Positions 9,192 to 10,423 of a stretch of DNA of 64,000 nt are shown piece after piece. The stretch's first letter is position 1, and each line of letters begins with the position of its first letter. This DNA is from Xanthomarina sp. F1114 (lineage in GTDB: Bacteria; Bacteroidota; Bacteroidia; Flavobacteriales; Flavobacteriaceae), in NCBI RefSeq assembly GCF_026410255.1, contig NZ_JAPMLL010000003.1:1-64000 (forward strand), in the 5' to 3' direction. Position numbers and translations under genes: made by a program. A model generated the notes under the pieces. That model was not told the origin of the DNA. It saw nothing but the letters and a program-made list of their open reading frames with translations, and did no database searches.

Positions 9192-10055
9192 ATGAGACAA
9201 CTTAAAATTACCAAGCAGGTTACCAATAGAGAAACCGCTTCGTTAGACAAATATCTTCAAGAAATTGGAAAAGTTGACTTAATTACAGCAGACGAGGAAG
9301 TAGAATTAGCACAACGTATTAAAGCAGGAGATCAAATTGCTTTAGAAAAGTTGACAAAAGCTAACCTGCGTTTCGTAGTTTCGGTAGCTAAGCAATATCA
9401 AAATCAAGGTTTAACCTTACCGGATTTAATTAATGAAGGAAACTTAGGACTTATAAAAGCGGCACAACGTTTCGACGAAACTCGTGGTTTTAAGTTTATT
9501 TCTTATGCTGTATGGTGGATTAGACAATCCATATTACAAGCTTTGGCAGAGCAGTCGCGTATTGTTCGTTTGCCTTTAAACAAAATTGGTTCTATTAATA
9601 AAATTAATAAAACATTTGCTTTTCTAGAGCAAGCACATGAACGTCCGCCAAGTGCAGAAGAAATTGCTAAAGAATTAGACATGACTATTAACGATGTTAA
9701 GGAGTCTATGAAAAATTCTGGCCGTCACGTAAGTATGGATGCTCCTTTAGTAGAAGGTGAAGATTCTAACTTATACGACGTATTAAACAGTGGAGAGTCT
9801 CCAAATCCAGATAGAGATTTATTACACGAATCTTTACGTACTGAAATTGAAAGAGCACTTGAAACCTTAACGCCTCGTGAAGCAGATGTCATCCGCTTGT
9901 ACTTTGGTCTAGGAAATCAACACCCAATGACCTTAGAAGAAATTGGTGAAACATTCGACCTTACAAGAGAACGTGTCAGACAAATTAAAGAAAAAGCTAT
10001 TCGTAGATTAAAACATACGTCTAGAAGTAAAATATTAAAAACTTACCTTGGGTAA
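9192..10055 (+). CDS. rpoD: primary RNA polymerase sigma factor (sigma-70, RpoD/SigA)
   Basis: A 287-residue housekeeping sigma factor. Region 1.2 is at about 17-50; region 2 at 58-116 contains [11 protein letters not shown] and the 2.4 segment [11 protein letters not shown]; region 3 spans about 117-215; and region 4 at 227-275 has the helix-turn-helix [24 protein letters not shown]. It lacks the long acidic region 1.1 and non-conserved insert of E. coli RpoD, which is normal for Bacteroidota, whose primary sigma recognises TTG and TAnnTTTG elements such as those in this window. It has its own transcription unit; a structured 3' region follows. Confidence 0.96.
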
Positions 10056-10138
10056 GTTTAAATTCCAAAAATAACAAACACTAAAATCCAAAAACTAAGA
10101 GATTGAATTTTGAGTTTTGTCTTTTGGAGTTTTACAGC

Positions 10139-10200
10139 AACAAACAGTATAATCTCGCTTCGGTGAGATACCCACTTTCGTGGGTAATAAACTGTTCGTT
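10139..10200 (+). ncRNA. compact three-way-junction RNA candidate downstream of rpoD
   Basis: An outer stem of nine pairs with one mismatch (10139-10148 with 10191-10200) encloses two abutting hairpins. The first is ATCTCGC-TTCG-GTGAGAT at 10152-10169, a 7-pair stem with a cUUCGg tetraloop. The second is ACCCAC-TTTC-GTGGGT at 10170-10185, a 6-pair stem. The UUCG loop and the G-U pair favour the plus strand. A T-run and a separate terminator (10216-10251) follow. It may be a small RNA or a structured rpoD 3' UTR. No promoter directly upstream is convincing; TATAAT at 10148-10153 falls inside the structure. Confidence 0.5.
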
Positions 10201-10215
10201 TTTTGATTGATGAAA

Positions 10216-10251
10216 GAAGCCAGAGCTGATTACTCTGGCTTCATTTTTTTT
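10216..10251 (+). terminator. strong rho-independent terminator after rpoD and the structured RNA
   Basis: GAAGCCAGAG at 10216-10225 pairs perfectly with CTCTGGCTTC at 10233-10242 around a 7-base loop, followed by A and eight T. Confidence 0.92.
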
Positions 10252-10423
10252 ATACCTCTCCCAAATTCTTACCCTACTAAATAAAGATTTTTTTTCGATT
10301 AATAATATGTTTCGTTTTCCTCTAGGAATCACTTATATATCCTTCTGTATTTACTAAGTACAAACATCCTTCTCACTGGCATTTTACTGTTGGCTGAATA
10401 CAGAGACTAAAAACTTATTTTCC

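Follow-up and report, generated by a model that had tools for sequence, protein, structure and literature searches.

The element behind rpoD

The window, by which we mean the whole stretch of 64,000 nt that was analysed, comes from Xanthomarina sp. F1114 and carries rpoD, the gene of the primary sigma factor. Downstream of this gene, on the same strand, lies a structured element of 113 nt, which the sequence places in the putative rpoD 3'UTR, ending at the terminator and presumably co-transcribed with the gene. The features are as follows.

9192 to 10055, plus strand: rpoD, primary sigma factor, presumed host gene of the 3'UTR element (open reading frame of 287 aa; Pfam sigma-70 regions 1.2, 2, 3 and 4)
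10139 to 10148, plus strand: 5' strand of stem P1, AACAAACAGT (RNA fold; kept in relatives)
10152 to 10169, plus strand: hairpin A in the P1 loop, with a cUUCGg loop, lineage-specific (sequence; among the elements read by eye, similar elsewhere only in locus L178)
10170 to 10185, plus strand: hairpin B in the P1 loop, with a UUUC loop, lineage-specific (10165 to 10184 match the REP-like pattern GAGATNCCCNCTTNCGNGGG exactly)
10191 to 10200, plus strand: 3' strand of P1, overlapping the start of the conserved block (RNA fold; family alignment)
10192 to 10213, plus strand: 22-nt block CTGTTCGTTTTTTGATTGATGA, the proposed seed (exact in 118 of the 119 carriers read; complement upstream of start codons)
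10216 to 10242, plus strand: P3, intrinsic terminator hairpin with the widely shared CUGAUUA loop (terminator scan, ten pairs; covariation)
10244 to 10251, plus strand: U-tract of the terminator (sequence)

The element is present once in the window's own genome, and its length compares with about 80 nt in most relatives. The initial annotation, made from the letters alone, had described an outer stem around two abutting hairpins, followed by a separate ten-pair terminator, and sequence, fold and terminator scan confirmed all of these parts at their positions. P1 pairs 10139-10148 with 10191-10200 through nine pairs and one A.C mismatch, and a U6 tract follows it. In the predicted fold the first nine nucleotides of the block are mostly paired in P1, and its UUUUGAUU core has an unpaired probability above 0.9. 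The plus strand from 10133 to 10254 folds at -40.7 kcal/mol (z -5.8), and 0 of 200 shuffled sequences folded as well, so that the claim of a structure beyond chance stands for the whole fold. For the inner hairpins chance is the wrong null, because hairpin B matches a dispersed repeat. The annotation had also preferred the plus strand. Folding energy does not bear this out, since the minus strand of the same segment folds slightly better (-43.1, z -7.1), but 56 cells of the family alignment A2 described below hold G-U-type pairs on the plus strand that read as A.C on the minus strand, and these favour the plus strand.

REP and dRS3-like elements are dispersed palindromes, and hairpin B shares their layout, a likeness limited to the insert in the P1 loop and not reaching the conserved RNA. 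At up to two mismatches the pattern GAGATNCCCNCTTNCGNGGG has 20 matches in the window's own genome (G000, loci L001-L030) against 0 for a reversed control, which makes hairpin B a dispersed multicopy palindrome of the REP kind. Among 118 distinct elements the P1 loop is 5-11 nt long in 105 and 24-43 nt in the other 13, whose loops hold varied palindromes, several of the GATTCCC..GGGAAT type (by eye). Two hairpins in the loop were seen, again by eye, only in the window and in L178 among these 118 elements, and a three-way junction as the functional fold therefore found no support. Because the P1 loop varies in length and hairpin B matches a dispersed repeat, we regard the junction as an elaboration of the loop, in which the inner hairpins would most simply be repeat insertions or their remnants. 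Selection for the junction as an RNA fold of the window's lineage seems very improbable to us: L178 belongs to another genus and carries a similar double hairpin with changes that appear to keep the pairing, but genomes of the window's own genus (G001-G007) have a P1 loop with no palindrome or with a single different one, and the repeat character of hairpin B counts against selection of the junction as well.

The palindrome has features of its own. A start codon lies within 25 nt on the same side in 8 of the 20 GAGATNCCCNCTTNCGNGGG matches and on the other side in 0 of 20, and this one-sidedness suggests that the palindrome may act in 5' leaders. Locus L025 (1501-2344) holds a tandem array of several copies of a palindrome GAGATTCCTGCTTTCGCAGG, the first five of them spaced 115 bp apart.

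Conservation in the family and linkage to rpoD

By the Rpe protein the nearest relative of the window is Hanstruepera marina (91%), followed at 86-88% by an uncultured Flavobacteriaceae bacterium, Lacinutrix venerupis, a Winogradskyella MAG and Psychroserpens. Directly 3' of rpoD many relatives share one layout, AACAAACAGTTA, a short loop and TAACTGTT, then CGTTTTTTGATTGATGAAAGAA, ending in a GC-rich hairpin whose loop is mostly CUGAUUA and in a T-run; the outer stem of the initial annotation is P1 of this layout. A MAFFT alignment of 16 sequences, 15 of them distinct (A1), had 97.4% of its cells paired, with changes on both sides of a pair in 24 cells against at most 4 in slid controls. A larger alignment (A2), in which 77 matches from 76 hand-chosen sources were fitted to a covariance model, had 96.3% of cells paired and both-side changes in 136 cells, where slid controls reached 21 at most. 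These changes fell mainly in P3 (126 of the 136 cells, covering 8 of its 10 pairs), and P1 was almost unvarying. Conservation and compensatory change in relatives, the check that the annotation had proposed for its structure, were found for the terminator and the block and not for the inner hairpins.

The covariance model R1 found a match at E <= 0.1 in 219 of 299 Flavobacteriaceae genomes and none in the other 80. Across the order 38 of 246 genomes matched at E <= 0.01, of which 32 belong to the family (best E of each 2e-8 or lower) and six to other families, at E 1e-4 to 0.005; no strong R1 match was found outside Flavobacteriaceae among these 246 genomes. The element lies on the same strand as rpoD and downstream of it in all 100 of the loci L142-L241, on which this count rests and which include some genomes twice, weaker second matches of some genomes being left out; the distance from the coding sequence is 34-495 nt. 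In L135 another open reading frame separates the element from rpe (by eye), which argues that the element is tied to rpoD. Upstream of rpoD, L222 (G478) holds the final 77 codons of another rpoD copy, the rest of which is cut off by the end of the locus, and an element of its own follows each copy.

Other explanations of the distribution were considered and set aside. A dif-like or terminus site does not fit, since in single-contig genomes rpoD and the element behind it are found at various positions. Viral contigs contained 0 exact matches to the block, which speaks against carriage by phages. Of 29 plasmid records with a match 25 were from Acinetobacter and none covered 80% of the query; the 20 matches listed had E values of 0.02 to 1 and covered the block region (query 48-81 or 48-96). 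The two Acinetobacter plasmids that were read (L447 301-334, L448 301-347) carry an intergenic TTGTACGTTTTTTGATTTATGA with three mismatches to the block, without the P1/P3 layout, and we take the plasmid matches to be AT-rich chance or an unrelated repeat.

The block is nearly invariant. Among 125 distinct rpoD loci 119 had it, 118 of them exactly, a proportion to be read as an upper estimate because the loci came mainly from the better-scoring matches listed, with weak ones such as G083 and G093 left out. The six other loci had no such layout by eye: five had a simple hairpin and a T-run, and L138 only a gap of 36 nt. In the 115 carriers with a full rpoD none of 69 fourfold-degenerate third positions was invariant, and the longest stretch of the coding sequence free of variation was 8 nt. 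A near-invariant block whose UUUUGAUU core is single-stranded in the predicted fold is what a conserved seed of a small RNA would look like.

Several variants were noted beside the common layout. In the window (10060-10133) and in L113 an inverted repeat of the TTCCAA/TTGGAA type takes the place of a short hairpin found in many relatives after the rpoD stop codon (by eye). In L217 and L219 an incomplete second copy, with other sequence in place of P3, separates rpoD from the full element. In L226, L234 and L236 the P1 loop is CTGATTA, as in the terminator, and the linker repeats TGAT (by eye); these loops and repeats are a possible protein-binding motif. A small peptide beginning ATGAAAGAA was rejected as a product of the region, since its frame is not kept and the spacings differ in L123, L133 and L135 (by eye).

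Complementary sites before start codons

At up to three mismatches the block matched several places each in many of the 299 genomes, among the matches listed. A hand tally of these matches in genomes G060-G099 gave 96 in the 27 carriers, elements included, and 4 in the 13 non-carriers; a reversed control of the same composition had 3 matches in these 40 genomes, against 100 for the block. A 17-mer core searched in six genomes had 76 matches against 15 for its control.

The places outside rpoD were then compared with start codons. On the antisense strand a start codon followed within 60 nt in 46 of 74 distinct places, and on the other strand in 0 of 74, so that many of the complementary sites lie at translation initiation regions, as those of a small RNA should; by the same rule 1146 of 29600 random positions had a start codon. 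The 74 places are often orthologues and not independent, and a nominal P value is not to be taken literally. They comprise 60 non-rpoD loci from the matches listed, which do not include the CGATTCG..AATGA class or, for the most part, the rows of G324 and later genomes, and the loci of the 17-mer search, in which that class is present and was counted as without a start. The offsets from site to start cluster at +2 (16 places) and at +25 to +27 (15 places). No start codon was found by the strict rule in 28 of the 74 places, some of which are inside coding sequences, several of them in that of a gene which we take to be M56/BlaR1-like; under a looser rule (any in-frame ATG, an open reading frame of 60 codons, duplicates kept) 61 of 78 were within 60 nt. 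Sites in this gene type were seen in L244, L249, L252, L253, L262 and L264, where TCATTAATCAAAAAACGAATCG precedes an internal ATG inside the coding sequence. Pfam assigned no family to a 30-residue piece of it, and these sites may be a coding coincidence or a target within the coding sequence.

These counts bear on two simpler readings. One is that the block is a double-stranded DNA operator, present in one copy behind rpoD, through which a regulator governs the padR operon together with other genes. A conserved motif at several loci does look like an operator, and padR is among the genes, but the orientation is strict (46 to 0), the sites adjoin the start codon and not a promoter, and the block spans a P1 strand and the linker of a covarying terminator structure, which makes an operator quite improbable. 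The other is that the element is a plain rpoD terminator with no regulatory role and that the leader matches are a coincidence of A-rich sequence. P3 is indeed a terminator, a U6 tract follows P1, flavobacterial leaders look A-rich, and loose matches show little excess in the window's own genome (below), but the block is conserved far above silent sites and outnumbers a reversed pattern of equal composition many times over, and we give this reading next to no probability.

The link between the element and its sites was measured at padR, a gene found in genomes with and without the element. The 120 nt upstream of padR were scored against the complement of the block, a score of 15 or more counting as a site. 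From 36 carriers given, four that had been picked for a known site and two without a padR match were removed, leaving 30; from 32 non-carriers, three without a match and G011, which had no locus, were removed, leaving 28. The carriers are 25 genomes of G060-G099 and five added by hand (G000, G002, G003, G008 and G156), the site in G003 being already known, and 17 of the 28 non-carriers were hand-picked from outside G060-G099. G089, with a misplaced start, and G066, with a match beyond the 120 nt scored, were counted as having no site; in G000 the padR start was read 12 nt early and the site was counted.

Of the 30 carriers 19 had a site, as did 2 of the 28 non-carriers (Fisher P 7e-6); within G060-G099 alone the figures were 15 of 25 carriers and 2 of 11 non-carriers (P 0.03). 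The score was below 15 in 11 of the 30 carriers. All four carriers picked for a known site were positive and were kept apart from the count. The two non-carriers with a site, G086 and G091, each match the block in an assembly that is fragmented, so that the element may have been missed in them; with these two set aside, 0 of 9 non-carriers in G060-G099 had a site. Shared ancestry of the carriers could also produce such a link. In a PadR tree, poorly resolved with 62 rows and too few columns, carriers and non-carriers were mixed, and 11 label changes were needed, at least 2 of them forced by supported branches. The non-carriers are probably not one clade, on weak evidence, and this mixing weakens the objection without removing it; shared ancestry as the cause of the padR link is excluded only weakly.

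The co-occurrence also bears on the possibility that the element acts only in cis, in the stability of the rpoD mRNA or as a site for a protein, the leaders being under another factor or serving as sponges for the rpoD mRNA. The linkage to rpoD in all loci read, the second rpoD copy included, agrees with such a role, and the UGAU repeats and the CUGAUUA loop that some genomes have in both hairpins would fit a protein-binding site. By itself, however, a cis element gives no account of why padR sites occur together with the element, and we consider it unlikely.

Several of the genes at the sites are envelope genes by their predicted products. Pfam, run on ten sequences from genes at the sites, identified PadR, DUF2807 (head-GIN, two sequences), MacB_PCD with an FtsX permease, Porph_ging/GLPGLI, Beta-lactamase, and CarbopepD_reg with an outer-membrane barrel and Plug (TonB-type), and it found no family for two of the full-length targets among the ten. 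In the window's own genome DUF4870, padR, pspC (toast-rack type) and DUF2807 stand in a row, a Psp-like operon; the padR leader carries TCAATCAAAAAAATGAACAG, the DUF2807 leader CACATCAAAAAACGAACAattATG, and a gene beginning MQTITKY.. a weaker site. The predicted duplex with the own element was -21.4 kcal/mol for the padR leader (0 of 1000 shuffles as good), -20.9 kcal/mol for DUF2807 (8 of 1000) and -19.2 for the MQTITKY leader (0 of 1000), and was not significant for the pspC leader (-13.4, 114 of 1000). An 18-mer of the complement, allowing up to three mismatches, gave 171 matches against 111 for the control in six genomes of the genus and a weak excess, 26 against 20, in the own genome, where most of the other places read were inside coding sequences. 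The regulon of this genome may thus be small, or its sites shorter.

A putative antisense RNA in the rpoD mRNA

The initial annotation had proposed a small RNA or a stable 3'UTR of the sigma-factor mRNA, and the linkage to rpoD, the covarying terminator, the 22-nt block and the complementary leaders all support it. Proteobacterial sRNAs derived from 3'UTRs, such as CpxQ, use the terminator of the coding mRNA in which they lie and have a seed that is conserved; the element has the same layout, with the primary sigma factor as its host gene. Rfam 15 gave no family at gathering score over the element in the window and ten relative loci, and rli61, MicC, BSnc120 and the other matches at low thresholds, all below their gathering scores, were rejected. 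Flavo-1 (RF01705), which the annotation had suggested for comparison, is likewise a flavobacterial structured RNA motif, of unknown function; it did not match the element at gathering score in the window or the ten relative loci, and its one match among the latter lies elsewhere in L032.

The closest parallels are in Bacteroides thetaiotaomicron, where GibS and FopS are described as sRNAs whose long, conserved seed pairs at translation initiation regions (PMC7366714, PMC11697453). The rpoD element resembles them in its phylum, Bacteroidota, in its long conserved seed and in the predicted complementarity to translation initiation regions; the two were shown by experiment in Bacteroides, whereas the element is from Flavobacteriaceae and known from sequence, and they are set apart here by their descriptions and not by the letters of their seeds. 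Of the 14 FopS members one comes from a 3'UTR, and FopS has a single-stranded 5' stretch followed by a Rho-independent terminator (PMC11697453); it is multicopy, whereas the element is tied to rpoD and single in the own genome. Rfp18 of Flavobacterium psychrophilum is described as a conserved, independent transcript whose third stem-loop pairs with metalloprotease mRNAs (PMC9723704). By that description, both are conserved flavobacterial RNAs, and the element differs in having two stem-loops in most genomes and in its place in the rpoD 3'UTR; the word rpoD is absent from the main text of that paper on flavobacterial sRNAs. The 15- and 16-mer pieces of the block and of its complement occurred in no paper of the literature searched, whose scope did not include supplements, and among the papers listed by further searches none, judged by title and start of the abstract, is on an sRNA from the rpoD 3'UTR of flavobacteria. 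sRNAs derived from 3'UTRs are known as a kind; the family of the rpoD element was not found in Rfam 15 or among the papers listed by these searches.

The sequences themselves show the structure and conservation of the element, its linkage to rpoD, the antisense sites in leaders and the co-occurrence at padR. The reading that we prefer is that the rpoD 3'UTR element is a trans-acting sRNA that represses envelope genes, to which we assign a probability of about 0.73. An RNA made of P1, the block and P3 would be released from the end of the rpoD mRNA, possibly as a discrete transcript, or would be active there, and the single-stranded UUUUGAUU core of the block would serve as the toehold on a target mRNA. 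Pairing in the cell would then spread from the core into the 3' strand of P1 and open this stem. The resulting duplex would cover leaders of the UCAUCAAUCAAAAAACGAACAG type, a few nucleotides or about 26 nt before the AUG, and would block the initiation of translation. Because many sites abut the start codon, as in GibS and FopS, repression is the likeliest sign of the regulation.

The targets would be envelope genes, foremost the padR-pspC-DUF2807 operon, and with such targets we propose that expression of the sigma factor is coupled to the silencing of an envelope-stress-like programme, which would be the physiological purpose. The fuller statement, that a family-wide sRNA in the rpoD mRNA pairs antisense at start codons and so silences outer-membrane proteins, MacB-type permeases and the Psp-like operon, has in our judgement somewhat better than even odds.

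Here 22 nt of noncoding sequence vary less than do silent sites in the conserved gene upstream. The block and the list of its antisense partners make RNA regulation in Flavobacteriaceae directly testable, and from the leader sites the regulon of further family members can be proposed by a simple rule. If the proposal is true, the mRNA of the housekeeping sigma factor would be a coding message and a repressor of an envelope regulon at once, and the sigma factor would be tied to envelope homeostasis through the tail of its own mRNA.
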